Assembly (NCBI RefSeq): GCF_900119385.1
Contig: NZ_FPKO01000009.1
Coordinates: 271,405-335,404, forward strand
Reading direction: 5' to 3'
Source of the DNA: Thermophilibacter mediterraneus
Lineage (GTDB): Bacteria; Actinomycetota; Coriobacteriia; Coriobacteriales; Atopobiaceae
DNA length: 64,000 nucleotides
Shown: positions 629 to 29,049 of the stretch, piece after piece
Layout of the letters: every line of letters starts with the position of its first letter
How positions within the stretch are numbered: the first letter of the stretch is position 1
Notes under the pieces: generated by a model
What the model was told of the DNA's origin: nothing
The model's input: only the letters and a program-made list of their open reading frames with translations
Database searches by the model: none
Translations under genes and position numbers: made by a program

Positions 629-2017
629 CTAGGCCATGCCCCGCTCGCGCACCGAGAAGTGCTCGCCGAGGCTCTCGTAGTCCGCGGGGTCCTTGGACCC
701 CGCCGCCACGCACTCGCGGCGGTTCACCTTCCACTCGGGGCGGATGCGAATCGGGCCCTCGAGCAGCGGGTCGCCGGTGCGGCGCATGAAGTCGTCGAGC
801 CGCGCGCGCATTTCGTCGAGCACGTCCGCGTAGCGCGGGTCCTCCGCAACGTTGTTAGTCTCGAACGTGTCGTAGGCCAGGTCGTAGAGGCACTCGGCGT
901 CCTTGGTGACGTCGGCGAGGCCGAGGTTCTCCTCGTAGTAGTTCTTCACGATCGACCCGTCGATGTTCGACTGGTTGAGGCGCAGCCAGCCCGTGTCAAA
1001 GAAGCGCAGGTACTTGTATCGGGCGGTGCGAACGGAGCGCACGGGCTCGTAGGAGGTGTGGAAGTTGATCTCCGCGTAGACCGCGTCGTCGCCCGGGTCC
1101 TGCTCGCCGCGGAAGATGCCCGCGTGGCTGGTACCCTCGAGATAGTCGGGCAGCTCGATGCCGAGCAGGTCAAGGAGGGTCGGCACCACGTCGATGTGCG
1201 AGACGAGCCCGTCGAAGCTGCGACCCTGCGCGCGGGAGCCCGGCACGCGCATGGCGAGCAGCACCCCCGTGCCCGCGTCGAGCAGCGTGCACTTCTCGAA
1301 CGGGTAGGCCAGCCCGTGGTCCGTGGTGAGCACGACGATGGTGTCCTCGTAGCGGCCGCTCTCGCGCAGCGCGTCGAGCACGAACCCGTAGTTGGCGTCG
1401 GCCATGGAGACGCTCTTCTTGAAGCACGCGTAGTCGGCGCGCGTCACCTCGTTGTTGGGGATGTTCACCGGCGGCTGGGCGTAGTCGGCGACGCCGGGGT
1501 CGGCATCGGGCCACGCCCGGTGCGTCGCGTGCTGGCCAAACGAGACGAAGAACGGGCGCTCCCCGTCATAGGACCTGATCCACTCCGCCAGGCGCTCGGC
1601 GTTCCTGCGGTCCCACACCACAAGGTCCTTCTCGGCGTACCCCGCGGCGTCGGCCGTGAGGTCCTCCTCGTAGCCGAGGGCCTCCGGGGCGAGCTGGTGG
1701 TCGGTGTAGTAGCCGACCTCGTGCTGGACGCCGCAGAGCACGCTGAGGAAGCCCTCGTGCGCGAGCAGGCGCGCGAGGTGGCGCGACCCGTCGATGTGAA
1801 ACCCGCGCTGCGCGAGGCCGAGCATGCCGTTCTGGTGCGGGTAGGTGCCCGTGAGCAGGCCCGCGCGACTCGGGGAGCACGTGGGCGCCACGCAGAACGC
1901 CTGCTGGAAGAGCATCGCATCCTCACAGAACTCCTGGATGCGGGGAGTCTCGACGGCGTAGCCGTAGGGGGAGATCACGCGTCCCGTGTCATGGGTGTGC
2001 AGGTAGAGAACGTTCAC
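629..2017 (-). CDS. S1-family sulfatase, sulfamidase-like (Cys-type)
   Basis: Hydrolyses a sulfate ester or sulfamate on a sugar. The 462-residue protein has the sulfatase signature CSPSR at residues 47-51; Cys47 should be converted to formylglycine by the anSME encoded at 11727-12821. HTHDTGR near the N-terminus and TTDHG at 231-235 supply metal ligands. The stretch PHQNGMLGL after the signature resembles heparan N-sulfatase (SGSH) relatives, so an N-sulfo or 6-sulfo hexosamine is possible; substrate is not proven. There is no signal peptide: the protein starts directly with the core beta strand, so it should act in the cytoplasm on imported sugar. It sits between an RpiR regulator and the EIIAB gene, with four palindromes in front of it. 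Confidence 0.9.
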   Translation of the reverse strand: MNVLYLHTHDTGRVISPYGYAVETPRIQEFCEDAMLFQQAFCVAPTCSPSRAGLLTGTYPHQNGMLGLAQRGFHIDGSRHLARLLAHEGFLSVLCGVQHEVGYYTDHQLAPEALGYEEDLTADAAGYAEKDLVVWDRRNAERLAEWIRSYDGERPFFVSFGQHATHRAWPDADPGVADYAQPPVNIPNNEVTRADYACFKKSVSMADANYGFVLDALRESGRYEDTIVVLTTDHGLAYPFEKCTLLDAGTGVLLAMRVPGSRAQGRSFDGLVSHIDVVPTLLDLLGIELPDYLEGTSHAGIFRGEQDPGDDAVYAEINFHTSYEPVRSVRTARYKYLRFFDTGWLRLNQSNIDGSIVKNYYEENLGLADVTKDAECLYDLAYDTFETNNVAEDPRYADVLDEMRARLDDFMRRTGDPLLEGPIRIRPEWKVNRRECVAAGSKDPADYESLGEHFSVRERGMA

Positions 2018-2077
2018 GCTGGCTCCTTCGGTCGCGCGGGACGAGATGGTGCACGTTACTCGTCCATGCTAGAGGCC

Positions 2078-2167
2078 TTGGAACAAATTCCAACACATGA
2101 GTGGAACGTGTTCCGCTCAATGGTAGAATTTATTCCGTGAACGTTATGTGAATGCGGAATTAATTTC
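2078..2167 (-). promoter_or_regulatory. Array of four GGAA-N4-TTCC palindromes (RpiR operator candidate)
   Basis: Four copies lie between the RpiR gene and the sulfatase: 2078-2093 (TTGGAA-CAAA-TTCCAA, perfect 6-bp arms), 2103-2114 (GGAAC-GT-GTTCC, perfect), 2125-2136 (AGAA-TTTA-TTCC, one mismatch) and 2156-2167 (GGAA-TTAA-TTTC, one mismatch). Their centres are 23, 22 and 31 bp apart, about two to three helical turns. The block is AT-rich against a GC-rich background and lies where the sulfatase promoter is expected. I read it as an operator array for the adjacent regulator; this is inference. Confidence 0.7.
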
Positions 2168-2187
2168 AGATTAGGGCGCCCCCGGCT

Positions 2188-2994
2188 CTACGACCGGCCC
2201 TCTCCCCCATCGAGCAGGTGCGCGATCTCGTTGAGCAGGCACTCCACGTACATGAACACGATGATCTGGTCCTCGAGGAGACCGGCAGCGTAGTCGCTGC
2301 TGATCCAAGGGAGAACCACGGCCTCGGAGGCGCTCTTGATGAAGGGGAGCTTGGGGTTCATCGTCACGAGCAGCACGTCGCAGCCGCGCTCCACGAGCGA
2401 CGACATGAGCGTTCCGTACGACTTGCTCCCGCGCCCGTTCATGGACATGACGATGCAGAGGTCCCCCGGCCCGAGGATGGTCGAGATGTCGTCCATGACC
2501 TGCTCGTCCGAGGTGGTCTGGTTGAAGATGCCAATACGGAAGAGCCGCAGCGAGAGCTGCTTGACGCTCTCGTAGGTGCGGTTGGCGCCCCAGATGCTGA
2601 TGCGGCGCGCGTTCAGGATGAGGCGCGCGAACCGCGCGAGCTGCGCCTTGTCCAGCCCGTCCGTCGTCTTCCTGAGATAGGCGGAGTAGGCGTTGGCGAG
2701 GTTGTCGTGGGACGAGAGCTCCCCGCCCACGTCCGCGCCCTCGTCCGCGTCAGCGCCGTGCGAGAGGAGCTGGCGGTTCATGCAGAAGCGGAACTCCGCG
2801 TAGCCGCTGTAACCTATCCGCTGGCACATGCGCATGATGGCGGTCGAGCTGAGGCCCGCCTCGCGGGCCACCGCGGCGATGGTCTTGTTGACCACCGAGG
2901 TCGGGTGCTCGATGAAGTAGTGCGCGGCTGCCTCCTCCGAGGGGGTGAAGTCCCCAAGGTGCGCCCTGAGCCGCTCGATCGGTCCGTCTGCCAT
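2188..2994 (-). CDS. RpiR/MurR-family transcriptional regulator (HTH + SIS)
   Basis: A 268-residue sugar-phosphate-responsive regulator. Residues 1-80 form the RpiR helix-turn-helix (PSEEAAAHYFIEHP, then VAREAGLSSTAIMRMCQRIG). Residues about 105-255 are a SIS domain that binds phosphosugars (ISIWGANRTYESVKQLSLRL; MSMNGRGSKS). The start is ATG 2994, preceded by GGGAG; the open frame upstream has no good ribosome site and is shadow sequence. The gene is upstream of the sulfatase and EIIAB genes on the same strand and probably controls them through the palindromes at 2078-2167, with a phosphorylated PTS product as inducer (inference). Confidence 0.9.
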   Translation of the reverse strand: MADGPIERLRAHLGDFTPSEEAAAHYFIEHPTSVVNKTIAAVAREAGLSSTAIMRMCQRIGYSGYAEFRFCMNRQLLSHGADADEGADVGGELSSHDNLANAYSAYLRKTTDGLDKAQLARFARLILNARRISIWGANRTYESVKQLSLRLFRIGIFNQTTSDEQVMDDISTILGPGDLCIVMSMNGRGSKSYGTLMSSLVERGCDVLLVTMNPKLPFIKSASEAVVLPWISSDYAAGLLEDQIIVFMYVECLLNEIAHLLDGGEGRS

Positions 2995-3076
2995 GTGTCT
3001 CCCGCCTCGCTCGTTTCCGAGACGTATCGTCGCACGGCGAGCCGCGTGGCGCAAACGTCGAGACGGAGCCTCTGGC

Positions 3077-3123
3077 AAAAAAGGGCCGCGAGAAGGACCT
3101 CTTTTCGTCAAGGGCTCCTTCTC
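3077..3123 (-). terminator. Rho-independent terminator after the PTS1-sulfatase operon
   Basis: On the minus strand a GAGAAGGA/TCCTTCTC stem (3090-3097 with 3116-3123) is followed by a run of six T (3077-3082 read in reverse). It separates the sulfatase at 3203-4672 from the RpiR gene, so the two are probably separate transcripts. Confidence 0.6.
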
Positions 3124-3143
3124 GGCGCGGAGGGAAGGTCGGC

Positions 3144-3174
3144 CGCCCCTCTCGAGGGTTTGTCGAGAGGGGCG
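3144..3174 (-). terminator. GC-rich hairpin just after sulfatase stop
   Basis: A perfect 12-bp stem (CGCCCCTCTCGA with its complement) around a 7-nt loop, 28 bp past the sulfatase stop codon. It has no U-tract of its own and may act with the terminator at 3077-3123 or protect the 3' end. Confidence 0.5.
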
Positions 3175-3202
3175 CGGCCGCAGATCGCGTCGAGCGGAGG
3201 GG

Positions 3203-4672
3203 CTATGCGTCCAGCCCCAGGCGGGCGAACTGGTCGTCCGGCGCCTGCGCCTCGCGCATGGCGCGAACGAGCAGCCCCTCCATCCGGGCGCGCACCGCCT
3301 CGTCCTCGACCTCCGTCGTCTGACCGGGGTCGAGCTCCAGGTCGAAGAGGTGGTCTTCGTTCGCGTGCGCCCCACCGTCCTTGACGAGGGCCTCGGGGCC
3401 GCTCGGGACGCGATAGACCGGATAGGGCACGCGTGGCAGGAAGCGACCCGCCTCGATCTGGTCGCCCCTGCCCCTGCCGAGCCAGTCGCGAATCGTGGTG
3501 AGGCTCGTGGTGTACTCGTGGCACCTGGTCTGGTCGCGCCCCCCGCGGAAGTACGTGTAGCGCCCGTCCGTCACGTTCACCGCGCACCCGAACGTGCCGT
3601 AGAGGGCATAGTCGTGAATCGCCTCGCCCCTCTCGGCCACCGCCCTGAGGGAGCGGCCCATGACGGTCTCGGGCACATCGACCCCCTGGTAGTCGAGAAT
3701 CGTCGGCATGAGGTCGATGTTCTGAGTGAGCTCCGAGCGCACTTCCCCCGCGTGCGCGCCGCCCGGGAAGTGCACGATGAGCGGAATGTTGGCAATCTCG
3801 TTGTAGGCGGGCATGTAGTTCTTGCCGATGTACTCGCGCTCGCCGAAGCAGTAGCCGTGGTCGGTCGTGAGGACGATGAGCGCGTCGTCGTACATCCCCG
3901 CCTTCTTGAGGTGGTCGATGAAGTCGCCGAAGTGTCGGTCGGTCATCGTGACGAGCGCCTGGTAGCGACGGAGCAGGTGCGCCATGGCGGCATCCGTCTC
4001 CTCGTCGCGACGGTGATAGCGCGGCAGCTCGAAGAACGGGCCGTCGTAGTCGTCGCCGTAGAGGTCGAGGTAGTCCCGCGGCACGTTGAAGGGCTCGTGC
4101 GGGTCGAAGGTCTCGACCATGAGCATGAAGTCCTCGGCCCCGCGGTTGTCGTCGACCCAGCGCTTTGCCGCCTCGAAGCACTCCACGCTGGAGAACTCCT
4201 CCTCGCGCGTAATGCGCGTGCGGTTGCACTGGTACTGGCGCTTGACGTCGCCGAAGTAGCGCTCGGGCTCCCAGGGGTCGTCGATGAGCGATACCCATGG
4301 GTCGCTCTCCTGCCCGCGGAAGAACTCGTAGGTGTTGAACTGCTGACAGTAGTTCTCGCCACCGATCCTGAAGTAGTGCGCGTGGTCCGTGATCATGTGG
4401 GAGCGCACCCCGCCGCGCTCGAAGAGCACCTTGGGGAGGGTGACGTCACCGATCTCGATTGGCCCCCAGCTGCGCTCCAGGAAGTTGGTTCGCCCGCAGA
4501 AGAGGTCGTGGCGGGCCGGCATGCAGGGCATGGACCCCACGAAGTGGCTGTCGAAGCGGCAGGACTCCTCGGCAAAGCGCGAGATGTTGGGCGTCATGCA
4601 GCTCGTGGCGGGGTTGTAGCAGCTCAGGAAGTCGCGGCGCAGAGTGTCCATCAGGACGACAATGGTTCTCAC
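3203..4672 (-). CDS. S1-family sulfatase (Cys-type), last gene of PTS1 operon
   Basis: A 489-residue sulfatase with signature CMPAR at residues 50-54 (Cys50 is the formylglycine site), Asp9 in VLMDTLRRD and TTDHGYCFGE as metal ligands. No signal peptide is present, so cytoplasmic action is expected. It is a close paralogue of the sulfatase at 12897-14411: both begin MRTI-x-VLMDTLRRD, share NFLER-x-WGPIE after the signature, and FRGQE-x-DPWVS further on. The start ATG is 8 bp from the EIIA stop, so expression is coupled to the PTS genes 4681-7185. The natural substrate is presumably the sugar brought in by that transporter (inference); the S1 subfamily could not be assigned by eye. Confidence 0.9.
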   Translation of the reverse strand: MRTIVVLMDTLRRDFLSCYNPATSCMTPNISRFAEESCRFDSHFVGSMPCMPARHDLFCGRTNFLERSWGPIEIGDVTLPKVLFERGGVRSHMITDHAHYFRIGGENYCQQFNTYEFFRGQESDPWVSLIDDPWEPERYFGDVKRQYQCNRTRITREEEFSSVECFEAAKRWVDDNRGAEDFMLMVETFDPHEPFNVPRDYLDLYGDDYDGPFFELPRYHRRDEETDAAMAHLLRRYQALVTMTDRHFGDFIDHLKKAGMYDDALIVLTTDHGYCFGEREYIGKNYMPAYNEIANIPLIVHFPGGAHAGEVRSELTQNIDLMPTILDYQGVDVPETVMGRSLRAVAERGEAIHDYALYGTFGCAVNVTDGRYTYFRGGRDQTRCHEYTTSLTTIRDWLGRGRGDQIEAGRFLPRVPYPVYRVPSGPEALVKDGGAHANEDHLFDLELDPGQTTEVEDEAVRARMEGLLVRAMREAQAPDDQFARLGLDA

Positions 4673-8654: not shown

Positions 8655-9443
8655 CTACGCAAGGGCGAACTTGTAGATGTTGTACGCGTTGATGAGGATG
8701 ATCAGCACCATGAGGCCCATGAAGAGCTTGTCCACGGTCTTGTCGTCGATCTTGGCGTTGACCTTGCGGCCCACGACGCCGCCCAGGATGCCGCAGACCA
8801 CCATGGCCGCCAGCAGCACCAGGTCGACGCCCTCCGAGCCCCCGGAGAGAAGCGAGCTCGCCGTGCTCGTCGCCTGAGAGAACAGGATGATGTAGAGCGA
8901 GCTCGACGCGGCGCGCTTGGTGGCCATCGTGAAGAAGTAGAAGAGCACCACGAGGTTGATGGGGCCGCCGCCGATGCCCAAAAACGAGGAGCACACGCCC
9001 AGGGCGAAGCCGATGACCAGGCACGCCACCGCGGACTCGATCTTGAGCGTGGGAATCTTCTCCTTGTAGATCGTGTAGGCCAGGGTCCCCAGCGTGATCG
9101 CCAGGAGCAGGCCCGCCTGCACCGCGCCTGCCGTGTTGGGGTCGGGGAAGAGCCCCGCCACCAGCGAGAAGAGCTCCTTTCCGGCAAGGCCGCCCACCGC
9201 GGCGCCGATGGCGAGCGGGGTGTCGGTCTTGGGGTCGATCGTCGAGGTGCCGGAGATCTTGGCCTTGAGGACCGAGTAGAGCGTCATCGAGAGGACCGTG
9301 CACCCCGAGAGGAAGTTGATCGTGGCCACGTCGGCCACGCCCGTGGCATCGAGAACCGGCTTGATGATGATGCCCCCGCCGATGCCGCAGATGGCCCCGA
9401 CGGTGCAGGCGAAGAAGCTGACGAGAAGCACGAGCACTTGCAT
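8655..9443 (-). CDS. TauE/SafE-family anion (sulfite/sulfate) exporter
   Basis: A 262-residue polytopic membrane protein of the TauE/SafE family, with the duplicated glycine-rich motifs GAICGIGGGIIIKPVLD near the N-terminus and SSFLGIGGGPINLVV in the second half, and about eight hydrophobic helices. Members export sulfite, sulfoacetate or related organosulfur anions. Here it lies in one operon with two sulfatases and the sulfatase-maturating enzyme, so export of sulfate or sulfite released inside the cell is a natural reading (inference). The ATG at 9443 follows the TPR protein gene by 53 bp. Confidence 0.88.
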   Translation of the reverse strand: MQVLVLLVSFFACTVGAICGIGGGIIIKPVLDATGVADVATINFLSGCTVLSMTLYSVLKAKISGTSTIDPKTDTPLAIGAAVGGLAGKELFSLVAGLFPDPNTAGAVQAGLLLAITLGTLAYTIYKEKIPTLKIESAVACLVIGFALGVCSSFLGIGGGPINLVVLFYFFTMATKRAASSSLYIILFSQATSTASSLLSGGSEGVDLVLLAAMVVCGILGGVVGRKVNAKIDDKTVDKLFMGLMVLIILINAYNIYKFALA

Positions 9444-9496: not shown

Positions 9497-10135
9497 TCAC
9501 GAGTCCGCGGGCTCCTCGCGGTCGGCGGGGACGGCGGACTCGAAGGCGCTCCTCACCTGCTCGAGGTACTCGTTGGCGCGTCGCGTGTCACCCCGGTTCT
9601 CGTACTGCACCGAGAGCAGGTAGAGCAGGGTGTTGCGCTCGCCCCCCTTCGCCGATCCCAGCCTCGCCTCCATCTGCTTGATGTAGGCGGAGCTCTTCTC
9701 GGCAAAGATCCGATAGGTGCGCTCGCACTCCTCGAGCTGCTCGGCGGGGAGGCCCTCCATGCCGCGAAGCTCGTCGAGCAGCCCCTTGGCGCGGCCGTAG
9801 TCCTCCTGCTCCACGAAGAAGTTGAACGCGCGCAGCAGCAGGACCTGACGCTGCTCCGCGGTGGTCCTGAGGGCGAGCATCTCCTCGATGATGCGGCGGG
9901 TCTCCTGCTCGTTCTCGAGGCACATCTGCGCGTTGAGACGCATGTAGAGCTGGTTGTACTTGGGGTAGATGAGCTTGATCACGGGGCGGTCGAGCAGGCG
10001 CACGCACCCCTCGAAGTCGCCCTGCGAGAAGAGCGTCTGGTACCTCGAGAACACCAGGCGCTTCTGCACCTCGGTGTACACGAGGGAGATGACGCAGATC
10101 GCCACCAGGATGATGCCAACCAGCTGCACGTCCAT
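9497..10135 (-). CDS. TPR-like protein with N-terminal membrane anchor (PTS2 copy)
   Basis: A 212-residue protein. Residues about 5-22 form a single membrane helix (LVGIILVAICVISLVY); the rest is helical with TPR-like repeats (for example YQTLFSQGDFEGCVRLLD and LRAFNFFVEQEDYGRAKGLLDEL). It matches the protein at 24126-24746 in length, single anchor, the alignable FNYFTQIGEKDRAKDLL/FNFFVEQEDYGRAKGLL segment and the later SKSHEYIPQMEEL/EKSSAYIKQMEAR segment. Both lie inside mannose-PTS operons. No function is known to me for this family; a scaffold on the cytoplasmic face for PTS or sulfatase proteins is possible. Confidence 0.8.
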   Translation of the reverse strand: MDVQLVGIILVAICVISLVYTEVQKRLVFSRYQTLFSQGDFEGCVRLLDRPVIKLIYPKYNQLYMRLNAQMCLENEQETRRIIEEMLALRTTAEQRQVLLLRAFNFFVEQEDYGRAKGLLDELRGMEGLPAEQLEECERTYRIFAEKSSAYIKQMEARLGSAKGGERNTLLYLLSVQYENRGDTRRANEYLEQVRSAFESAVPADREEPADS

Positions 10136-10186: not shown

Positions 10187-11674
10187 CTAGCACTGCTCGA
10201 GCACGACCCGAGGCTTCCTTCCCACGACGAGCCCGCCGTCCTGGACGTAGCCCTCCTCACGGTCGCGCAGCTCCTCTATGAGTATCGCACGGAGCTCGGC
10301 CACGCGCTCGGCATACGCCGGGTCCCCGGAGAGGTCGCGCTCCTCGCGCGGGTCCGCGTCGAGGTCGAAGTAGCGCTCGACCCCGCTCTGCGTGAACCAG
10401 ACGTACTTGTCGTGACTCGTGACGATGTACTGGTTGGACTGCTCGTAGTCGCGCGAGTGCTCGCCGTGGACGTACGCGCGCCCGAGGTCCTTCTCGCCCG
10501 TGATCTCCCCCCTGAGCGAGGAGCCGTCCACCCCCTCGGGCACCTCGACGCCCGCGAGGTCGAGCAGGGTGGGCATGACGTCCATGAGGTCGACGACGGC
10601 ATCGGACGTGCGCGGGCGGGGCCGCCCGCCCGGCAGCACCTTGGACCCGACGCGAACGATGAAGGGCACGTGGGCGCTGCCCTCGTACGGGAGGACCTTG
10701 CGGAACGTGCAGTGATCGAAGAGCATCTCGCCGTGGTCCGCCGTGAAGAGCACGATGGTGTTCTCGTAGGTCTCGTCGTTCTCGAGCGAGGTGATGAGGC
10801 GGCCGATCTGGTGGTCGATGTGCGTGATGCAGCCGTAGTAGCCCGCCATGGCCTCGTGGCGCAGCGTGGCGTCGCGACAGCCGTGCGGGCTGTCGAGGAC
10901 CATGCCGTCGCGCTCGGTGGCGTCCTCGTCGTCCCAGTCGCCGCGCGCCGGCTCGCGCAGCTCGCGGTCGAGATAGGGCTGGTAGTAGGCAGCGGGCGCG
11001 TCGAAGGGCGGGTGCGGGCGCACGAAGCTCGCCATGAGGAAGAACGGGCGGGTGCGGTCGCGCGTCTCGAGGAAGCGGATCGACTCGTCGACGACCCAGT
11101 TGGTGGGGTGCAGGCGCTCCTCGTAGACCCACGGGCGCGCGATCCAGGAGTTGTTCTCGACGCCCGTGCCGTTGACGTCGGCGGCGGGCCCGAGCTCGGC
11201 GCGCAGGAAGCGCAGGTAGTCGTCGGAGACGTCCTGGTGCATCCAGTGCGGGAGGTTGGCCTTGCGATAGTGGCCGATGTAGCCGTCGTGCAGGCGCAGG
11301 GTCTGGAAGCCGCAGGCCAGGCGGGGCGGGTGCACGTGCATCTTGCCCACGCAGGCGGTCTGGTACCCCGCCTCGGAGAACTCCTCCGCCATCATGTGGT
11401 CGTAGCGCCAGGCGATGCCGTCCTGGTAGCCCACGCGCCCGGCGTGGCGCGGCGTCTTGCCGGTGAGCAGCGAGGCGCGGGCCGGGATGCAGCTCGGGCA
11501 CGCCGAGTAGCCGTTCTCGAAGAACGTTCCCTGCGCCGCGAGGGTGTCGAGATAGGGGGTCTTCACGTCGGGGTGCCCCGCGTACCCAAGGCAGTCCCCG
11601 CGGAACTGGTCGCACACGATCAGGACCACGTTGGGACGACGGCTCTCGAGGCAGTCGTCGGTGTCGGTTGCCAT
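10187..11674 (-). CDS. S1-family sulfatase (Cys-type), PTS2 operon
   Basis: A 495-residue sulfatase with signature CIPAR at residues 62-66 (Cys62 is the formylglycine site) in PSCIPARASLLTGKTPRHAG. The N-terminal metal site reads VCDQFRGD (Asp22), as in choline-sulfatase and iduronate-2-sulfatase relatives, and TADHGEMLFDH supplies later ligands. It is clearly not of the same subfamily as the two MRTI-type sulfatases here, so the enzymes probably attack different sulfate positions. No signal peptide. ATG 11674 has AGGAG upstream. It lies 52 bp after anSME in the operon. Confidence 0.9.
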   Translation of the reverse strand: MATDTDDCLESRRPNVVLIVCDQFRGDCLGYAGHPDVKTPYLDTLAAQGTFFENGYSACPSCIPARASLLTGKTPRHAGRVGYQDGIAWRYDHMMAEEFSEAGYQTACVGKMHVHPPRLACGFQTLRLHDGYIGHYRKANLPHWMHQDVSDDYLRFLRAELGPAADVNGTGVENNSWIARPWVYEERLHPTNWVVDESIRFLETRDRTRPFFLMASFVRPHPPFDAPAAYYQPYLDRELREPARGDWDDEDATERDGMVLDSPHGCRDATLRHEAMAGYYGCITHIDHQIGRLITSLENDETYENTIVLFTADHGEMLFDHCTFRKVLPYEGSAHVPFIVRVGSKVLPGGRPRPRTSDAVVDLMDVMPTLLDLAGVEVPEGVDGSSLRGEITGEKDLGRAYVHGEHSRDYEQSNQYIVTSHDKYVWFTQSGVERYFDLDADPREERDLSGDPAYAERVAELRAILIEELRDREEGYVQDGGLVVGRKPRVVLEQC

Positions 11675-11726
11675 GTGTCTCCTTTCCTCAGCGGGCGGGC
11701 GCCCCCTCGCGGGGCCCGTTCCGGTC

Positions 11727-12821
11727 CTATCGGCTCACGAGCATGCGGGCCACGCGCGCGAGGGGCTCGTACGCGTGCTCGAGAAACGCTCGGTAGCCGC
11801 AGTAGTCGTCATCGTAGTAGGACGCGTTCAGGCGCTTGCAGTTGCGGTGGCAGATGCCCTCGAAGGGGCAGTCGGAGCATGCGGAGCAGGGCCTCCTCGG
11901 CTCGGCGAGAAACGCGCGCATGGGCTCGCAGGTCGCCATGGCCTCGAGGGAGTCCTCGCGCACGTTCCCGCAGCGGTACTCGTCGAGCGCGTAGAAGTCG
12001 CAGGGGTAGACGTCGCCGTTGCTCTCGACCACGAACTGCGGGGCGCATCGGCCGAGCATGCCGCAGGCCTGGGGATACTGGCCCAGCGACATCTGCATGA
12101 TGTTGTCGAAGAGCCCGACCGACATCACGTGCCCTGCGCGGACCTCACGAAGCCACAGGTCGAAGAATGTCCTATAGAACGAGAAGAACGCGCGCGGCGT
12201 GAGGGCGTACTCCGCGCCCTCGCCGTCGAAGCCGGCGAGGCACGGGATGAGCTGAACGTAGTCGATCCCCTCGCGCTGATAGAACTTGAACACGCGCTGC
12301 GGGTGACGGGCGAGCTGGGCGGAGAGCACCGTGAGGACGTTGAAGTCGACGCCGGCGTCGCGCAGCATCCCCACCGACTCCATGACGCGCGCGTGCGTGC
12401 CGCCGAGCGACACGTCGCGGCGCAGGGAGTCGTGCAGCTCGCGGTACGCGTCCACGGAGACGCCCACGAGGAAGCCGTGCTCGCGGAAGAGGGCCGCCCA
12501 CTCGGGCGTGAGCGTGTGGGCGTTGGTCTGAAGGGCGTAGCTCACGTGCTGGTTGGTGCGCCGCTCGTCGACGTAGTCCGTGAAGGCGCGGAAGAACTCG
12601 ATTCCCGCGAGCGTGGGCTCGCCGCCCTGGAACGCAAAGGTCACCTGGGCGTCGTCGCCAAGGGCGAGCGCCCGGTCGACGAGCGCGCGCATGGTCCGCT
12701 CGCTCATCCGCTCCCTCACCGCGTGCGCGCGATGGTCCGCGACGTCACGGTAGAAGCAGTACGAGCACCGCATGTCGCAGGCGCTCGACGCCGGCTTTAT
12801 GAGGAAGCTGATGTACTTCAT
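11727..12821 (-). CDS. Anaerobic sulfatase-maturating enzyme (radical SAM/SPASM)
   Basis: A 364-residue radical SAM enzyme that oxidises the active-site cysteine (or serine) of sulfatases to formylglycine without oxygen. The CX3CX2C motif is at residues 15-22 (CDMRCSYC) and binds the SAM-cleaving 4Fe-4S cluster. The C-terminal SPASM region carries many cysteines (CGMLGRC, VYPCDFY, CSACSDCPFEGICHRNC) for two auxiliary clusters. It sits between two sulfatases in the same operon. It is the only such enzyme in the window and presumably serves all four Cys-type sulfatases. Confidence 0.94.
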   Translation of the reverse strand: MKYISFLIKPASSACDMRCSYCFYRDVADHRAHAVRERMSERTMRALVDRALALGDDAQVTFAFQGGEPTLAGIEFFRAFTDYVDERRTNQHVSYALQTNAHTLTPEWAALFREHGFLVGVSVDAYRELHDSLRRDVSLGGTHARVMESVGMLRDAGVDFNVLTVLSAQLARHPQRVFKFYQREGIDYVQLIPCLAGFDGEGAEYALTPRAFFSFYRTFFDLWLREVRAGHVMSVGLFDNIMQMSLGQYPQACGMLGRCAPQFVVESNGDVYPCDFYALDEYRCGNVREDSLEAMATCEPMRAFLAEPRRPCSACSDCPFEGICHRNCKRLNASYYDDDYCGYRAFLEHAYEPLARVARMLVSR

Positions 12822-12833
12822 GCGAACCCCCGC

Positions 12834-12863
12834 GCGAGGGCCCCACCGATGCGGGGCCCTCGC
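12834..12863 (-). other. Intercistronic GC hairpin
   Basis: A perfect 11-bp stem, GCGAGGGCCCC (12834-12844) with GGGGCCCTCGC (12853-12863), between the sulfatase stop and the anSME start. It lacks a U-tract. Confidence 0.55.
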
Positions 12864-12896
12864 CCATCGTGGTCAAGCTGACACAACAAGTTGACA

Positions 12897-14411
12897 CTAC
12901 AACCTGACGTCCGTGTCAAGCCCGAGGCGGACGAGCTGCTCCGCGGGGGCGTCGTGCTCGGCGAGGCCGCGCCTCAGCAGCTCGATCATGCGCTCCTCGG
13001 CCGCGGCATCGACCCCGACGAGGTCGTGCTCCTGCGCGTAGTCCGCCTGGAGGTCGAAGAGCTTGGTCTCGTGGACCTCCTCGAGGCAGTCCTCGCGCTG
13101 GTCGATGTTCGCCGGCTTGGCGCACGGAAAGCGATACACCGGGTAGTCGGTCCACGTGAGGAAGCGGCCCATCTCGATCTTGTCGACGCAGTCGGTGCCC
13201 ATCTTCTTGCGAATGGTGTGGGGGATCGCCGCGTACTCGTAGCAGGGCTGGTTGCCCGGGACGGGGGCGCGGAAGTAGGTGTAGCGGCCGTCGGTCACGT
13301 TGACGGTCATGGCGTGCACGCCATAGAGGCCGTACTCGCGCGTGGACGCCTCGGGGTTGCTCATGAGCGGCATGAGCGAGGTGCCGGTGACCGTGTTGGG
13401 GACGGGGCACCCGTGCGCCTCGAGCACCGTCGGCATGAGGTCGATGGCCTGGGTGAGCTGGTGGGCGCGCTCGCCGGCGCGCTCGCCGTTCGGGAACTTC
13501 ACGATGAGGGGCAGGTGCGCCATCTCGTTGTAGAGGTGCATGTAGTTCTTGCCGAGGTAGTCGCGGCTGCCGAGGAAGTAGCCATGGTCCGTGGTCACGA
13601 TGACCATGGTCCCCTCGTACATGTCCCGCTCCTTGAGCTTGTCGATCAGCGTGCCGAACCAGTGGTCGGTCATCGTGACGAGCGCCTTGTAGCGACGCTG
13701 CACGTAGTCGACGGCCCCCTCCGGGATGTCGGTGTCCGAGACGCGCCGGTAGGGCGGAATCTCGAAGTAGTCGCGGTCGAGCTCACCGGCGCCGCCGTAC
13801 TCGTCCATGTAGCTGTCGGGCACGTCGAAGGGCTCGTGCGGGTCGAACGCCTCCACCATGAGGAAGAAGTCGTCGTCGCCGGCGTTCTGGTCGATGAAGT
13901 CGCACGCGGCGCGGAAGGTCCTCGGAGAGGGCATGTCCTCCTCGTTGGGCCACTTCTCGCGGTTCTTCTGATACTGCTCGCGCACGCGCCCGTAGAACGT
14001 CTCGGGCATGTTGTCCGGCTCGTCGATGCGACTCACCCACGGGTCGCCCTCCTGCCCGCGGAAGAGCTCCCAGGTGTTGAAGAGCTGCAGGTAGCCCTCT
14101 CCCCCGGTGCGGGCATAGTGGCAGTGGTCCGTCTTGATGCAGGTGTAGACGCCCCCGGCGCGCAGGCGGTCGACGAGCGTCACGTCGAAGGGCTCGATGG
14201 GTCCCCAGGGGCGCTCGAGGAAGTTGTAGCGACCACACATGATGTCGCGACGGGCGGGCATGCACGGCGCAGAGCCGATCCAGTGGTTGTCAAAGACGAC
14301 GGAGTCCTGCGAGAACGCCTCGAGGTTAGGAGTGCGGGCGCTGCGCTCCGGGCAGTAGCACGAGAGCGCGTCGCGGCGCAGGGTGTCCATCAGAACGAGA
14401 ATGGTCCTCAT
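12897..14411 (-). CDS. S1-family sulfatase (Cys-type), PTS2 operon
   Basis: A 504-residue sulfatase, paralogue of the one at 3203-4672. Signature CMPAR at residues 50-54, Asp9 and Asp14 in VLMDTLRRD, and TTDHGYFLGSRDYLGKNYM as downstream metal and substrate residues. No signal peptide. Because it and its paralogue each accompany a different mannose-family PTS, the pair probably arose by duplication with the transporter cassette (inference). ATG 14411 lies 72 bp after EIID, with a hairpin between them. The stop codon lies inside a 22-bp sequence shared with the end of agaS. Confidence 0.9.
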   Translation of the reverse strand: MRTILVLMDTLRRDALSCYCPERSARTPNLEAFSQDSVVFDNHWIGSAPCMPARRDIMCGRYNFLERPWGPIEPFDVTLVDRLRAGGVYTCIKTDHCHYARTGGEGYLQLFNTWELFRGQEGDPWVSRIDEPDNMPETFYGRVREQYQKNREKWPNEEDMPSPRTFRAACDFIDQNAGDDDFFLMVEAFDPHEPFDVPDSYMDEYGGAGELDRDYFEIPPYRRVSDTDIPEGAVDYVQRRYKALVTMTDHWFGTLIDKLKERDMYEGTMVIVTTDHGYFLGSRDYLGKNYMHLYNEMAHLPLIVKFPNGERAGERAHQLTQAIDLMPTVLEAHGCPVPNTVTGTSLMPLMSNPEASTREYGLYGVHAMTVNVTDGRYTYFRAPVPGNQPCYEYAAIPHTIRKKMGTDCVDKIEMGRFLTWTDYPVYRFPCAKPANIDQREDCLEEVHETKLFDLQADYAQEHDLVGVDAAAEERMIELLRRGLAEHDAPAEQLVRLGLDTDVRL

Positions 14412-14483: not shown

Positions 14484-15317
14484 CTACGCGAAGATCTTGG
14501 GGAAGCCGGGGATGTAGTAGTTCAGGGCGAAGAGCACCAGGCACACGGCGATGATGCCGAGGATGATCTGGGCAGAGTTCTTGCCCTGCCCCTTCTTGAG
14601 CAGGCGGTAGCAGATGAAGGTGACGATGATCGGCAGCAGGCACGGCAGGACGGAGTCGAGCTGGGTCTGGAGCACGAGCGGGTCGCCCTCGTCGAAGGCA
14701 AACTGGATGGCCGTGGAGAGCTTGACCGTGGTGGCGATCAGGCCGCCGGTGACCATGACGCCGAGGACGTTGGCGGCGTCACCGAGGCGGTCGAAGACCT
14801 CGACGCCAAACTTGTCGACGAGCGCCATGCCGGACTCGTAGCCCTTGTGCAGACCGAAGTACTTGAGCGGCCAGTACAGCAGGTTGATGAGCAGGAACAT
14901 GACGATGGGGCCGATGATGGAGCCGTTGCTCACGCACAGGGAGGCGCCGATGGAGCCGGCAATCGGGAACCACGTGAGGTTGAGCAGCGAGTCGCCGATG
15001 CCGGCGAAGGGGCCCATGAGCGAGGTCTTGATCGCGGTGACGGTGTCCTTGTGCTCCTCGTCGGTGTTCTCCTCGACCGCGGTGGCGATGCCGAGGATGA
15101 ACGGGATGGCGATGGGGTGCGTGTTGAAGTACTCGAGGTAGCGATTCATCGCGTTGACGCGGTCCTCCTTGGGGGCGTCCTTGTAGAGCTCCTCGAGGAC
15201 CGGAGAGATGCAGTAGGTGAGCGACAGGGACTGCATGCGCTCGTAGTTGTGGGCGAACTGGCAGGCCTGGGTCCTGAGAAGGACCTTGTTGAGCGTCTTC
15301 TTAGAGATCTTACCCAT
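14484..15317 (-). CDS. PTS mannose-family EIID membrane component (PTS2)
   Basis: A 277-residue EIID with CQFAHNYERMQSLS, FNTHPIAIPFILGIATAVEE split around residue 70, MGPFAGIGDSLLN and C-terminal hydrophobic helices. Its start shares one base with the EIIC stop (TAATG), indicating translational coupling. It belongs to the PTS2 set EIIA-EIIB-EIIC-EIID that heads the sulfatase operon. Confidence 0.92.
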   Translation of the reverse strand: MGKISKKTLNKVLLRTQACQFAHNYERMQSLSLTYCISPVLEELYKDAPKEDRVNAMNRYLEYFNTHPIAIPFILGIATAVEENTDEEHKDTVTAIKTSLMGPFAGIGDSLLNLTWFPIAGSIGASLCVSNGSIIGPIVMFLLINLLYWPLKYFGLHKGYESGMALVDKFGVEVFDRLGDAANVLGVMVTGGLIATTVKLSTAIQFAFDEGDPLVLQTQLDSVLPCLLPIIVTFICYRLLKKGQGKNSAQIILGIIAVCLVLFALNYYIPGFPKIFA

Positions 15318-16126
15318 TAGAGATCATACTCCTCGTCCTCGTCGCTGGCAGGGGCTGCGACAGCTGCGGTGGCCTGGGACTTCTTGCCGCTCTCGACGAC
15401 GAAGTCGTAGAAGCCGGCGGCAGCGGCGGCCACGAGGGCGATGCCGATGGTCGGAACCTTGAGGAAGGCCGCGAGCACGAAGCCACAGATGAGGAAGATC
15501 CACATGTTCTTCTTCATCATCATGGTGAGCAGCATCGCAAGGCCGACGGCGGGCATCATGCCACCGGCGGTGGAGAAGGCGGAGAGAACCCACGGCACCT
15601 GGTTCTGCAGGAAGGCCATGATGTCCTCGACCACGAACGAGCCGACGCCCGTGGCGATGAAGACCGGGATGGCGCGGGTCAGGAAGAAGCTGACGCCGCC
15701 GGCCCAGAAGTACTTGTTGATCGACTTGAAGTTGCCGGACTCCGCCGCCTTGTCGGCGCCGTGCAGCCAGGTGATGTTGGTGGTCATCACGAGGATGTTG
15801 AGCTGCTGGACGAGGGTGGCGGTGGGGATGCCGATGGCGACGGCCAGGGCGATGGCGCTCGCGGAGTCGCCGCCGGACATGATGCCGAGGGCCGCACCCA
15901 CGATGGTGCCGGAGATGACGTCAGGCGGCACGTAGGCGCCGATGTTGTTGACGCCGAGCCACATGAGCTCCATCGTGGCGCCGATCATGATGGCGGTGGT
16001 CATGTCACCGAGGATGATGCCAACGCCGACCGAGGCGAGCAGCGGCTTCCTGAAGCCGAGGTGCGGGCCAAACTGGTCCCAGGTACAAAGACCGGCCCAG
16101 ATGGCGAGCAGAAGTGCTTGGAACAT
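15317..16126 (-). CDS. PTS mannose-family EIIC membrane component (PTS2)
   Basis: A 269-residue EIIC beginning MFQALLLAIWAGLCTWDQ, with GFRKPLLASVGVGIILGD and a GATMELMWLGVNNIGAYVPP segment typical of the family. It ends in an acidic tail (SDEDEEYDL) like the other PTS membrane subunits here. ATG 16126 has AAGGAGG upstream. It forms the sugar channel with EIID. Confidence 0.92.
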   Translation of the reverse strand: MFQALLLAIWAGLCTWDQFGPHLGFRKPLLASVGVGIILGDMTTAIMIGATMELMWLGVNNIGAYVPPDVISGTIVGAALGIMSGGDSASAIALAVAIGIPTATLVQQLNILVMTTNITWLHGADKAAESGNFKSINKYFWAGGVSFFLTRAIPVFIATGVGSFVVEDIMAFLQNQVPWVLSAFSTAGGMMPAVGLAMLLTMMMKKNMWIFLICGFVLAAFLKVPTIGIALVAAAAAGFYDFVVESGKKSQATAAVAAPASDEDEEYDL

Positions 16127-16174
16127 TCTTCCTCCTTCTGACTAACTGCGAACGAATGACGTCGCTGTTGCTGA

Positions 16175-16194
16175 CGGCGCCCCCCTCGGCGCCG
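16175..16194 (-). other. Intercistronic GC hairpin
   Basis: CGGCGCC (16175-16181) and GGCGCCG (16188-16194) form a 7-bp stem between EIIB and EIIC of PTS2. Confidence 0.4.
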
Positions 16195-16210
16195 AAGGTG
16201 CCCTAGGCGC

Positions 16211-16699
16211 CTACTCCCCCGCGTGCGCGCCGCTCAGAAGATCGGCGACGGAGACCTTGGGATCGCGCGTGGTGGGCTGCATCCAGCACTCCACGCCCAT
16301 CGAGATGAGCTTCTCGAAGGCCGCGCGCTCCTCGGGAGTCACGGACATGTTCTTGTGCAGGCGGGTGCGCTGGTCGTTGAAGCGCATGCCGGAGACGTTG
16401 AGGTAGTCGAACGGAAGTCCGTTCTCGTGCATCTTGAGGGCGTCGATGGGGTTGGTGAAGAGCACCATCGTCACCTTCTTGAGCGTCGTCTTCTTGAGGA
16501 CGTCGATGAACTTGTCGACGCCGAAGACCGAGACCTTGACCTTGGGGACGGCGAGGCCCGCCACGGACTTCTGGACGGGGTCGTTGGCGACCTTGTCGTC
16601 GACGATGATGACGGACTCGATGCCCAGGTCGGGAATCCAGGTGGAGGCAAGCTGCCCGTGGATGAGGCGGTCGTCGATGTCAGCGATCTTGAGTGCCAT
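16211..16699 (-). CDS. PTS mannose-family EIIB (PTS2)
   Basis: A 162-residue EIIB with IADIDDRLIHGQLASTW; His14 is the phosphorylated residue. It takes phosphate from the EIIA encoded just upstream and passes it to the incoming sugar. GAGAAGAAC before ATG 16699 is a fair ribosome site. Gaps to both neighbours are about 84 bp and both contain short GC hairpins. Confidence 0.92.
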   Translation of the reverse strand: MALKIADIDDRLIHGQLASTWIPDLGIESVIIVDDKVANDPVQKSVAGLAVPKVKVSVFGVDKFIDVLKKTTLKKVTMVLFTNPIDALKMHENGLPFDYLNVSGMRFNDQRTRLHKNMSVTPEERAAFEKLISMGVECWMQPTTRDPKVSVADLLSGAHAGE

Positions 16700-16740
16700 G
16701 TTCTTCTCCCTTTCTCTTTCCTTCGTGCGCGTACCGAGGA

Positions 16741-16771
16741 GCCCGCGCGCGGTCCCTTCCCCGCCGCGGGC
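16741..16771 (-). other. Intercistronic GC hairpin
   Basis: GCCCGCG (16741-16747) and CGCGGGC (16765-16771) can pair between EIIA and EIIB of PTS2; the stem is short. Confidence 0.35.
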
Positions 16772-16783
16772 GTCATGCCGGGG

Positions 16784-17221
16784 CTAGAGGTCGAGGTCGT
16801 CCTCGTCGTCGTCCGACTTCATCTCGACCTTGATCTCAGCGAGGGTCTGGGCGTGCGCGGCCTCGATGAGCTGGCGAATCTCGTCGGCGCTGCCAGCCTG
16901 GTCGCGCGAGAGGAGAAGCTCGATGAGCACCGGGAGGCTGAGTCCCGTGAAGGCCACCATGTCCATGCCCCTGAGCATGCTGCGCGAGATGACGTTGAAG
17001 GGGGTCCCGCCGTGGATGTCGCAGATCGTGACGATAAGCTCGCAGTCGGCCTTGAGCTCGTCATAGGCCTGCGCGAACTCCGACTCGAAGGTCTCCGCCG
17101 ACTTGTCGGCGGTCAGGGCGAGGGCGCGCACGTCCTCCTGGGGGCCAGCAACCATCTCAACGCTGCCGAGCGCCGCCCTCGCAAACTCTCCGTGGCTCGC
17201 AACGATCACGCCAACCCTCAT
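16784..17221 (-). CDS. PTS mannose-family EIIA (PTS2), first gene of operon
   Basis: A 145-residue EIIA. His10 in GVIVASHGEFA is the expected phosphorylation site and CDIHGGTPFN near residue 74 is the second family motif. The C-terminus is strongly acidic (KSDDDEDDLDL). It is the promoter-proximal gene of a roughly 9-kb leftward operon reaching position 8125 and is divergent from the DeoR gene at 17599. Confidence 0.92.
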   Translation of the reverse strand: MRVGVIVASHGEFARAALGSVEMVAGPQEDVRALALTADKSAETFESEFAQAYDELKADCELIVTICDIHGGTPFNVISRSMLRGMDMVAFTGLSLPVLIELLLSRDQAGSADEIRQLIEAAHAQTLAEIKVEMKSDDDEDDLDL

Positions 17222-19593: not shown

Positions 19594-20307
19594 CTAGTAC
19601 TCCGCCAGGCGGTCCTTGAACCTGTCGAGGAGGCGCTGGTTGAACTCAGGGCCGCCGTCGACGTTGGCGCTCATGAACAGCGGCGGCTGGACGCCGCGCT
19701 CGACCAGGATGTCGAGCGACTCCATGACGGCGCAGTCGAGGAGGAGGCACCCGGTGTAGAGCGAGGTGCCGCCCACGCGCGTGGGAATCCCCTCGACCTC
19801 GAGCGCCGCGTCGCCGAACGAGGACTTGTTGTCGAGCACCACGTCGGCGCACTCGAAGAGGCGCTTTCCGGTCTTGGAGCGCGAGGTGCCCGCGGCGGAG
19901 ACCTCGCGCGCCGTCACCGCGATGACCTTCACGCCGGCCTCGCGGGCGTGAAGGGCCAGCTCGACCGGCAGCGGGTTGCGGCCGGAGTTCGAGATCACGA
20001 CGAGACAGTCCTCGGGGCGCAGGTCGAGCTTGAGCCAGAACTGGTCCCCCACGCCGTCGATCATCTCGTAGATGCCCCATGCCGGCTCGCGCACCACCTT
20101 GGTCTGGATGTAGCCGCCTGCGCGCCCGCAGATCTCGAGCGCGTTGGCGTGGCTGTGGCCAGAGCCAAAGGCGCGGATGATGCCTCCCCGCTCGATGGTG
20201 TCGGCAAAGATGGTCGCAGCATCGTGGAGCGCGTCCTCCTGGCCGTCGATGACCGTGTCGAGCCTGCGCAGCACCTCCGCCTTGAAACGCTCGGCCGTGC
20301 TCGTCAT
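19594..20307 (-). CDS. SIS-domain protein (UPF0309-type sugar isomerase domain)
   Basis: A 237-residue SIS protein with FGSGHSHANALEICGRAGGY (phosphosugar-binding start), SNSGRNPLPVE and a C-terminal GVQPPLFMSANVDGG block characteristic of the UPF0309 group. Related proteins bind or isomerise amino-sugar phosphates; the exact reaction is unproven. It is the last gene of the GH35-PTS3-AgaS-NagA operon, 9 bp after nagA, so it very likely acts on an amino-sugar phosphate in that pathway. Confidence 0.82.
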   Translation of the reverse strand: MTSTAERFKAEVLRRLDTVIDGQEDALHDAATIFADTIERGGIIRAFGSGHSHANALEICGRAGGYIQTKVVREPAWGIYEMIDGVGDQFWLKLDLRPEDCLVVISNSGRNPLPVELALHAREAGVKVIAVTAREVSAAGTSRSKTGKRLFECADVVLDNKSSFGDAALEVEGIPTRVGGTSLYTGCLLLDCAVMESLDILVERGVQPPLFMSANVDGGPEFNQRLLDRFKDRLAEY

Positions 20308-20316
20308 GGTCGCCCC

Positions 20317-21483
20317 CTACTTGACCTCGACGCCGCCGACGAAGGTGGTCGCGAGCGTCATGTCCGCGTTGAAGACCGTCATGTCGGCGAGCCTGCCCGG
20401 CTTGATGAAGCCGAAGCGGTCGTCGATGCGCGCGGAGCGGGCCGCGACCTCGGTGGCCATGCGAATGGCCTGGTCCGCCGTCACGATCTGCCAGTCCACC
20501 ATGTTCTTGACGCCCTCGGCCAGCGTGAGGACCGAGCCCGCGATGGAGCCGGTGGTGCCGTCCTCGTTCCTGAGGTAGCACAGCCCGCCCTTCATGACCA
20601 CGGGCAGGCCACCGGACATGTAGTCGCCCTCCGGCATGCCGCCGCAGCCCAGGCAGTCCGTGATCAGCACCGTGTGCTCCCAGCCCTTGGCGTCCACGAG
20701 CGCCTTGATGGCGGCGGGCACGACGTGGCGACCGTCACAGATGATTTCGGCGTAGGTGTTCTTGGTGGTCATGGCCGCACCGGTCACGCCGGGGTCGCGG
20801 TGGTGAAGCCCGCGCTGCCCGTTGTAGGTGTGCACGAAGCAGCTCGCGCCGGCGTTCACGGCGGCGAGGGTCTGGTCGTAGGTGGCGTCGGAGTGGCCGA
20901 TGGAGGTCACCACGCCCATCGCGTCGAGCGCCGCGCAGTACGGGCAGGCGCCGTCGCGCTCCGCGGCGAGCGCGCTCTTGACGATGCGGCCGCCTGCCGC
21001 CTCCTGCCAGCCCTCGAACACCTCAACGGAGGGGTCGATGAGGTAGGCGGGGTTCTGGGCGCCCACGTGCTTCATCGTGAAGAAGGGGCCCTCGAGGTAG
21101 ATGCCGCCGATGCGCGCGCCGAGGAAGTCGTCGCCGCGGCTCTCGTCGGCCTTGGCGATCGCGGCGCAGGAGCCCGCGATCTGATCGATCGACTCGGTGA
21201 AGGTGGTCGGAAGCCAGCAGGTGGTGCCGCGACGGGCGAGCTCGAGGCTCGAGGCGTTGATGCCCTCCGCCTCGCGGTCGGTGGTGGCGTGGTTGAAGAA
21301 GCCGTGGATGTGCGTGTCCACGAGGCCGGGGGCCACGGTGCAGCCCGTGAGGTCGCGGATCTCGCAGTCGGGCTCCTCCGCCGACCAGCTTCCGAAGACG
21401 CCGTCGGTCACGGTGAGGTAGCCTCCCTGCATGGTGGCGCCCGGAAGAACGAATCGGTCGGCCCTGATGGCAAAGGTGCTCAT
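20317..21483 (-). CDS. nagA: N-acetyl-hexosamine-6-phosphate deacetylase (NagA/AgaA)
   Basis: A 388-residue amidohydrolase that removes acetate from GlcNAc-6-P or GalNAc-6-P. DTHIHGFF gives metal ligands His58 and His60; YLEGPFF, SIGHSDAT and ITDCLGCGG carry the remaining ligands and the catalytic aspartate. The start is ATG 21483 with GAGGAG upstream. Being downstream of agaS, it probably serves GalNAc-6-P, as AgaA does, though the sequence alone cannot separate AgaA from NagA. Confidence 0.88.
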   Translation of the reverse strand: MSTFAIRADRFVLPGATMQGGYLTVTDGVFGSWSAEEPDCEIRDLTGCTVAPGLVDTHIHGFFNHATTDREAEGINASSLELARRGTTCWLPTTFTESIDQIAGSCAAIAKADESRGDDFLGARIGGIYLEGPFFTMKHVGAQNPAYLIDPSVEVFEGWQEAAGGRIVKSALAAERDGACPYCAALDAMGVVTSIGHSDATYDQTLAAVNAGASCFVHTYNGQRGLHHRDPGVTGAAMTTKNTYAEIICDGRHVVPAAIKALVDAKGWEHTVLITDCLGCGGMPEGDYMSGGLPVVMKGGLCYLRNEDGTTGSIAGSVLTLAEGVKNMVDWQIVTADQAIRMATEVAARSARIDDRFGFIKPGRLADMTVFNADMTLATTFVGGVEVK

Positions 21484-21546
21484 GATGAATCTCCTCTGGT
21501 CTCGAGCGGTGCGGTGTCTGGTCACACCCAGCGTGTCACATGCACG

Positions 21547-21581
21547 GACGCCCGCCCGAGCAAACCGTGCGGGCGGGCGTC
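21547..21581 (-). other. Intercistronic GC hairpin between agaS and nagA
   Basis: GACGCCCGCCC (21547-21557) and GGGCGGGCGTC (21571-21581) form a perfect 11-bp stem. No U-tract, so read-through to nagA is likely. Confidence 0.55.
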
Positions 21582-21630
21582 AAATCTCGGCGACTGAGCG
21601 CGGGGTTGACACTATGACCTGACGTCAGCG

Positions 21631-22797: not shown

Positions 22798-22823
22798 GGG
22801 GCCGTCCTTTCTTCGGGTGACGT

Positions 22824-22842
22824 GAGGGGGACCGTCCCCCTC
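22824..22842 (-). other. Perfect palindrome between GntR gene and agaS
   Basis: GAGGGGGAC-c-GTCCCCCTC, 9-bp arms around one base. It could be an mRNA hairpin overlapping the 5' leader of agaS; a role as operator is less likely because it is so GC-rich. Confidence 0.4.
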
Positions 22843-22846
22843 ATCG

Positions 22847-23572: not shown

Positions 23573-23616
23573 CATGCCCCCTCTCATGCTCGACGCCCCC
23601 CTGCTCGAATGGGTCC

Positions 23617-24746: not shown

Positions 24747-24770
24747 GACACAACGCCTTTCGTGAGAGAA

Positions 24771-26601: not shown

Positions 26602-26698
26602 GGTTCTTTTCCTCCTTCTAACTTTCTCGAACTTCTCAAACCTTCACGCTATATGACTGCGGCGCATCTCCCCTCACCGCGTAGCGTCCGTGCTCGCC

Positions 26699-27163: not shown

Positions 27164-27164
27164 G

Positions 27165-28970: not shown

Positions 28971-29049
28971 CTTGCTCCTTGCTCGCACCAAGACCAACCG
29001 ACCGATGACGCACGCCACCCCTCGGCGGCCCATTGCGCGTGCTAGCAAC

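Follow-up and report, generated by a model that had tools for sequence, protein, structure and literature searches.

Predicted membrane-anchored TPR proteins in mannose-type PTS operons of Thermophilibacter mediterraneus and other Coriobacteriales

Mannose-type phosphotransferase system (PTS) transporters import mucin and glycosaminoglycan sugars into gut bacteria, and in the familiar systems of this type the soluble EIIA and EIIB subunits simply encounter the membrane subunits. LapB (YciM) and MamA are bacterial TPR proteins with roles at membranes; LapB has a membrane helix followed by cytosolic TPR repeats and acts with FtsH in proteolysis. YajC is a small single-pass protein. In Clostridium perfringens, the yajC gene CPF_0405 is reported as the neighbour of EIIA within a mannose-type PTS cluster, with a listed value of 8.51 for hyaluronan relative to none (PMC11496695). 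The pneumococcal bgaC operon (SP0060-SP0066) is described as containing bgaC, EIIB, EIIC, EIID, a fourth PTS gene and agaS (PMC3302838).

In the current study, a stretch of 64,000 nucleotides from Thermophilibacter mediterraneus (contig NZ_FPKO01000009.1, positions 271,405 to 335,404), called the window here, was analyzed. The initial annotation had pointed to two proteins of about 210 residues within it, each with one N-terminal membrane helix and TPR-like repeats, and both proved to be real open reading frames:

9497-10135, minus strand: TPR copy a, 212 aa, with a membrane helix at the N-terminus (about residues 3-20) followed by a TPR solenoid that is probably cytosolic
24126-24746, minus strand: TPR copy b, 206 aa, GTG start, architecture as in copy a

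The plus-strand translations of both ranges are also stop-free and were not taken as genes. Similarity between the two proteins is detectable (BLASTP, 31% identity over 186 columns, E 8e-29), and on this sequence comparison they are homologues and paralogous, as had been claimed. A search of the whole T. mediterraneus genome (E up to 10) found a and b as the only family copies.

The single N-terminal membrane helix was borne out by hydropathy (2.5 and 2.9 for the two window proteins). By the positive-inside rule, positive charges flank a membrane helix on the cytosolic side. K/R was in excess behind the helix compared with before it in 24/24 and 14/14 rows with full N-termini, after exclusion of rows not starting with M, V or L (3/27 and 1/15); in 63 rows trimmed at the profile start, whose N-termini are incomplete, the net charge on the C-side was higher in 41, lower in 17 and equal in 5. 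Since more K/R lies behind the helix, an N-out/C-in orientation is predicted, and the charge pattern suggests that the TPR domain faces the cytosol.

The AlphaFold2 models of copies a and b reached a mean pLDDT of 90.9 and 90.3, respectively, with 11 helices each in the same order, and both feature a TPR solenoid of antiparallel helix pairs. Pfam TPR models scored under the curated cut-offs (copy a 20.4 bits versus 23.5 for TPR_14; copy b weaker), and other family members matched several TPR models (best E 1.1e-5, cut-offs not shown). The models at a pLDDT of about 90 and the sub-cut-off Pfam scores together indicate a TPR solenoid with a divergent sequence, for which "TPR-like" had been a fair description. 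VIA-align of copy b gave Rap/NprR-type and other helical-repeat chains spanning residues 1-199 with Z up to 12.4, a value common among helical repeats, and neither YajC nor PTS folds were among its rows, an absence that proves nothing. Foldseek, run for copy b only, returned weak matches to TPR proteins (best E 7.9e-3, MamA; TM mostly 0.4-0.5) and none at E up to 0.001. In Pfam and NCBIfam, neither protein contained a PTS domain (EIIA, EIIB, EIIC or EIID) or matched YajC at E up to 1, and within the same limit NCBIfam LapB models matched neither of them; among 15 family members they matched one, weakly (E 2.5e-4). The PHROGs search found nothing.

A profile search detected the family in 73/246 genomes of the class sample and in 16/396 genomes of the phylum sample, all within the same two families, which appear to be Atopobiaceae (Olsenella, Thermophilibacter) and the Collinsella/Enorma family, both of Coriobacteriales. 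EIID was present in 116/246 class genomes, including all 73 with the TPR family (lists compared by eye); this co-occurrence is weak evidence by itself, since neither trait extends beyond those two families. In T. mediterraneus itself, a TPR gene stands beside or near EIID within the operon for 2/7 EIID genes. Two copies with in-frame stop codons (G249:C1:2835285-2835899 and G026:C1:1984904-1985509) are probably pseudogenes on sequence grounds, and open reading frames of about 415-425 aa (L061-L063) also match the family (E 4e-4 to 7e-3). Copies a and b are, we tentatively propose, membrane-anchored TPR adaptors belonging to mannose-type PTS operons that occur in Atopobiaceae and in the Collinsella family.

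Copy a is flanked by a sulfatase and an exporter, as the initial annotation had placed it, in the following operon:

14484-17221, minus strand: mannose-type PTS EIIA, EIIB, EIIC and EIID of the sulfatase operon
12897-14411, minus strand: second sulfatase of the operon
11727-12821, minus strand: radical SAM/SPASM protein, probably an anaerobic sulfatase-maturating enzyme (name inferred)
10187-11674, minus strand: sulfatase before copy a (PF00884, E 4e-51)
8655-9443, minus strand: TauE/SafE-type exporter, the next gene after copy a (PF01925, E 1.2e-27)

The gene order is therefore EIIA-EIIB-EIIC-EIID-sulfatase-radical SAM/SPASM-sulfatase-TPR-TauE exporter. In all four sulfatases of the window (629-4672 and 10187-14411, minus strand), the catalytic domain begins within the first 14 residues, and these enzymes are therefore probably cytosolic. 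All four also carry a C-x-P-x-R type motif, which marks Cys-class sulfatases requiring maturation. Together with the radical SAM/SPASM protein and TauE, the sulfatases likely reflect PTS import of sulfated sugars, internal desulfation and sulfate export.

Copy b lies between EIID and EIIA, also as annotated, in an operon headed by a GH35 gene:

27165-29048, minus strand: GH35 beta-galactosidase, operon head
26699-27172, minus strand: EIIB
25711-26601, minus strand: EIIC
24900-25751, minus strand: EIID, directly before copy b (PF03613, E 7.8e-80)
23617-24039, minus strand: EIIA, with the start taken at 24039
19594-23632, minus strand: operon tail with a GntR/UTRA regulator, SIS (AgaS-like), amidohydrolase (NagA-like) and a second SIS

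The order here is GH35-EIIB-EIIC-EIID-TPR-EIIA-GntR-SIS (AgaS-like)-amidohydrolase (NagA-like)-SIS. To judge by these genes, the imported sugar may be galacto-N-biose or GalNAc. A longer EIIA reading frame (to 24228) enters the TPR gene in another frame, giving a false N-terminal extension of 63 residues. The gaps flanking copy b are 153 and 86 bases and those flanking copy a 51 and 53, and from these gaps and the shared strand of the genes, we infer operon structure at both places.

The association of the family with the PTS, which had been claimed from these two operons, was conserved for the groups of both copies, but it did not extend to all members. The GH35-operon EIID occurs at 28 places in 26/246 genomes. 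A TPR gene adjoins 23/23 EIID orthologues that are at least 66% identical (for 22, both genes share a contig; G013 was inferred from two contig ends, and G198 is a short, diverged match) and 0/5 relatives at 56-63% identity. Among the named loci of clade b, the clade containing copy b, EIID and/or EIIA stands beside the TPR gene in 36/36. For the sulfatase-operon EIID, 13/14 places (all but G216) have a TPR gene at most about 5 kb downstream. Divergent family members were also found near further PTS operons of at least three different kinds, and other members near non-PTS genes:

L051: PTS operon with alcohol dehydrogenase and SDR
L060: PTS operon with aldo-keto reductase and esterase
L058, L125, L209: PTS operon with a shared EII order and the TPR gene on the opposite strand; an epimerase and a phosphomannose isomerase-like protein are encoded at L058 and L125
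L113: family member downstream of another AgaS/NagA operon
L124: non-PTS copy near a phenylalanyl-tRNA synthetase gene
L122: non-PTS copy near purL-like and DUF711 genes
L118, L119: non-PTS copies near lacI-type and rhaA or phosphoketolase genes

When 71 distinct copies were considered with their fetched surroundings, EIIC or EIID was matched no more than 10 kb away for 49 and not for the other 22, of which 19 have at least 9 kb of sequence on both sides. The 49 include two copies beside EIIC fragments only (L054, L055) and three type a copies (L047, L049, L050) for which the GH35 operon is the closest PTS. This sample is non-random, as many near-identical Collinsella-type matches were left out, and the free-standing share is probably understated, because the single such match that was fetched (L117) has no nearby PTS. 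PTS linkage thus does not define the family, and homologues without a PTS neighbour, which the initial annotation had regarded as contrary evidence if widespread, occur in part of it, including apparently free-standing copies of the Collinsella family. Two of these, L053 (9801-10421) and L110 (9505-10140), lie near a ppx/gppA-type gene, with enolase also close by in L053, and possibly reflect a non-PTS role. The copies at L054, L055 and L056 are nearly identical; L054 and L055 adjoin EIIC and sulfatase fragments and are apparently decaying relatives of the sulfatase-PTS operon. In G187, G198 and G267, the TPR gene follows EIID in an operon without EIIA. Conversely, a TPR gene is missing from the GH35 mannose-PTS operons of G216, G261 and G262, and the description of the pneumococcal bgaC operon names none either, indicating that such transporters can do without the TPR protein.

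The 22/71 copies without nearby EIIC/EIID agree with the explanation that the family is a generic membrane TPR protein of Coriobacteriales with housekeeping or other roles, its PTS copies being passengers without a transporter-specific function. However, a passenger would hardly be kept at 23/23 and 13/14 orthologous operons in two families, as well as in at least three other PTS operons, and we consider this explanation unlikely.

In a tree of 63 rows, clade b formed a single clade (support 100/99) of 25 rows, all from the GH35-type PTS operon, while rows labelled sulfatase-PTS required 3 changes and 14/16 "no PTS" rows lay in a separate part, alongside 4/5 "other PTS" rows. The labels are partly loose: L047, L049 and L050 carry the sulfatase-PTS label with sulfatase absent, their TPR gene having the final SIS gene of the GH35 operon on one side and TauE on the other; L056 is a locus without an EII gene; L101 was labelled "no PTS" from short flanks and is placed by L196 in a sulfatase-PTS operon; and four GH35-PTS rows had short flanks, their counterparts L127, L134, L136 and L142 showing PTS genes, with the GH35 gene off the contig in three. 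PTS linkage has been gained, or lost, more than once in the TPR family. Within the same operon, the mean distance was 0.656 for TPR versus 0.119 for EIID, so that the TPR gene evolves about five times faster.

The evolutionary rates of the operon genes were then compared as residual rates on a fixed tree. For the GH35 operon, 27 of 37 operons (36 loci and the window) passed the coverage filter and 10 were dropped, giving 27 taxa, 51 branches and 36 gene pairs. The expected partners EIIC and EIID ranked first of the 36 (0.79), TPR-EIIA second (0.46, permutation p 0.001, uncorrected) and TPR-EIIB fourth (0.34, p 0.0065), whereas TPR-EIID and TPR-EIIC reached 0.08 and 0.13. The values for EIIA and EIIB above that for EIID point to the soluble PTS subunits as the likelier partners. 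In the sulfatase operon (11 taxa, namely 10 loci and the window, 19 branches and 21 pairs, with other loci of that operon left out), TPR-EIIA covariation was 0.22 (p 0.18, at low power), and TPR covaried best with a sulfatase (0.50, p 0.019, which is not significant when all 21 pairs are considered). The distance-based TPR-EIIA correlation was 0.68 over the 27 taxa, 0.18 within the genus of the window and 0.55 within the Collinsella family, where AgaS equals EIIA as a correlate of TPR (0.57).

These data lead us to suggest, tentatively, that the TPR protein may be a membrane-tethered cytosolic adaptor for the soluble EIIA and EIIB. The cytosolic solenoid would keep EIIA above all, perhaps EIIB too, or else an enzyme of the operon beside the membrane EIIC-EIID, resulting in local phosphoryl transfer or local processing of the imported sugar-phosphate, and members encoded elsewhere than in PTS operons would combine this anchor and solenoid with other partners. 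We do not word this more strongly because the sulfatase operon gave no signal, the correlation is weak within the genus and three operons have no EIIA. For the scaffold for EII or downstream enzymes envisaged in the initial annotation, the evidence is thus divided: TPR and EIIA covary in rate in the GH35 operon, the sulfatase operon lacks this signal, and three operons keep TPR without EIIA.

The position of the clade b TPR gene, immediately after EIID wherever the upstream gene is on the contig and even without EIIA, would also suit a biogenesis factor that inserts, assembles or stabilizes the EIIC-EIID complex, in a role akin to that of YajC in glycosaminoglycan PTS clusters, for which yajC (CPF_0405) in a mannose-type PTS cluster is a precedent (PMC11496695). 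This is also rather unlikely, as the rates of TPR do not covary with those of EIID or EIIC, the YajC similarity is absent (Pfam and NCBIfam, E up to 1) and copy a is several genes distant from EIICD. A regulator or LapB-like protease adaptor, which would present an operon enzyme or regulator as client to a membrane protease or would sense pathway flux, has the layout of LapB (membrane helix, then cytosolic TPR), the weak match in 1/15 members and the presence of LapB among the Foldseek matches in its favour, but it is quite doubtful given matches at the generic TPR level, with none by Foldseek at E up to 0.001, the fast sequence drift of the TPR gene and no protease gene noticed among the identified operon genes.

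Besides the putative adaptor, the GH35 operon contains three candidate RNA elements:

26633-26695, minus strand: E1, in the EIIB-EIIC gap, hairpin with a near-invariant loop
24854-24884, minus strand: H1, upstream hairpin of the EIID-TPR gap, with compensatory changes within the genus
24751-24839, minus strand: E2, also in the EIID-TPR gap, with a 17-bp stem that ends right ahead of the Shine-Dalgarno sequence of the TPR gene

E1 and E2 bracket EIIC-EIID, with E2 just upstream of the TPR gene. The 31 rows of the E2 alignment were picked from the matches, with repeated loci and reverse-strand echoes removed. Among the 30 distinct sequences, pairing holds in 97.5% of cells and both-side changes occur in 9/17 pairs. 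The observed value was reached by 0/500 shuffles in 4/5 measures and by 35/500 in the fifth (further pair types), and slid controls were far lower. An E2 match was present in 33/34 named clade b loci, L160 being without. For E1, aligned without the diverged gaps L160, L190 and L195 and four near-repeats, 98.5% of cells pair over 22 distinct sequences, with double changes in 15 cells; its covariation score beats 500/500 shuffles, whereas the number of double-change pairs (2) and the pair types are not above chance (reached by 454 and 382/500 shuffles). Scans of the 246 genomes, with stricter filters under which weak matches are lost, gave 20 E1 matches in 20 genomes and 20 strong E2 matches (at least 55 bits) in the same 20. 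Weak E2 matches in G188, G165 and G246 (28.7-34 bits), one elsewhere in the T. mediterraneus genome (34.1 bits) and the reverse-strand echoes of the palindrome were set aside. By these searches, G187, G198 and G267, with TPR and no EIIA, have neither E1 nor E2, and an E1-like hairpin remnant may be present in G187 (L160). The window had no match above the Rfam thresholds, and when 1 kb was scanned with laxer settings, Rfam yielded a single match, below threshold and on the opposite strand.

The E1 loop GGGAGAU is complementary to the 3' internal loop AUCUCCC of E2, with 6-7 Watson-Crick pairs in the five operons tested for chance, where 0.8 to 21% of shuffled E2 segments reach an equal run. 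The in-register helix of Collinsella aerofaciens has a single compensatory change (A to G, matched by U to C), but the loop of the window can also pair over 6 positions with the C. aerofaciens segment. The loop pairing is suggestive only. A short open reading frame in the E1 loop was rejected by eye, its stop not being conserved. E2 was likewise rejected as a plain intrinsic terminator: the T-runs after the stem in the Collinsella family are broken in the genus of the window. The terminator scan, which permits loops of 3-8 only, did not list E2.

E1 and E2 could serve to set the ratio of EIIC-EIID to TPR-EIIA, which, if true, would be a new way of setting subunit ratios within a transporter operon. 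Published candidate RNAs from human microbiomes could include E1 or E2 (PMC8040213). The fullest form of our proposal, a dedicated accessory subunit docking EIIA (and EIIB) onto EIICD in several Coriobacteriales PTS operons, with expression of the TPR, EIIA and catabolic genes of the GH35 operon set apart from EIIC-EIID by E1/E2, whose loops may pair across about 1.8 kb, is improbable as a whole. A conserved membrane-bound PTS adaptor, if true, would be a new layer of organization, and genetic tools are reported for Coriobacteriia (PMC9734109). In the literature searched, mostly outside subscription titles, no description of a membrane TPR protein with a PTS was found and no characterized member was recognized, nor did the initial annotation know of one.

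Compared with known systems, the TPR genes resemble the YajC clusters in being located inside a mannose-type PTS cluster beside EII genes (PMC11496695), but the window proteins match no YajC model and their predicted fold is a TPR solenoid. They share such a solenoid with LapB and MamA, MamA topping the Foldseek list and LapB also being present, although these matches are weak and generic, the NCBIfam matches occur in single members only and the gene context differs. The GH35 operon has the beta-galactosidase-EIIB-EIIC-EIID-PTS gene-AgaS order in common with the pneumococcal bgaC operon, whereas the description of the latter names no TPR gene between EIID and the fourth PTS gene and has GntR on the opposite strand (PMC3302838). 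The parts are familiar, namely the TPR, the anchor and the PTS operon, and their combination is a new variant.
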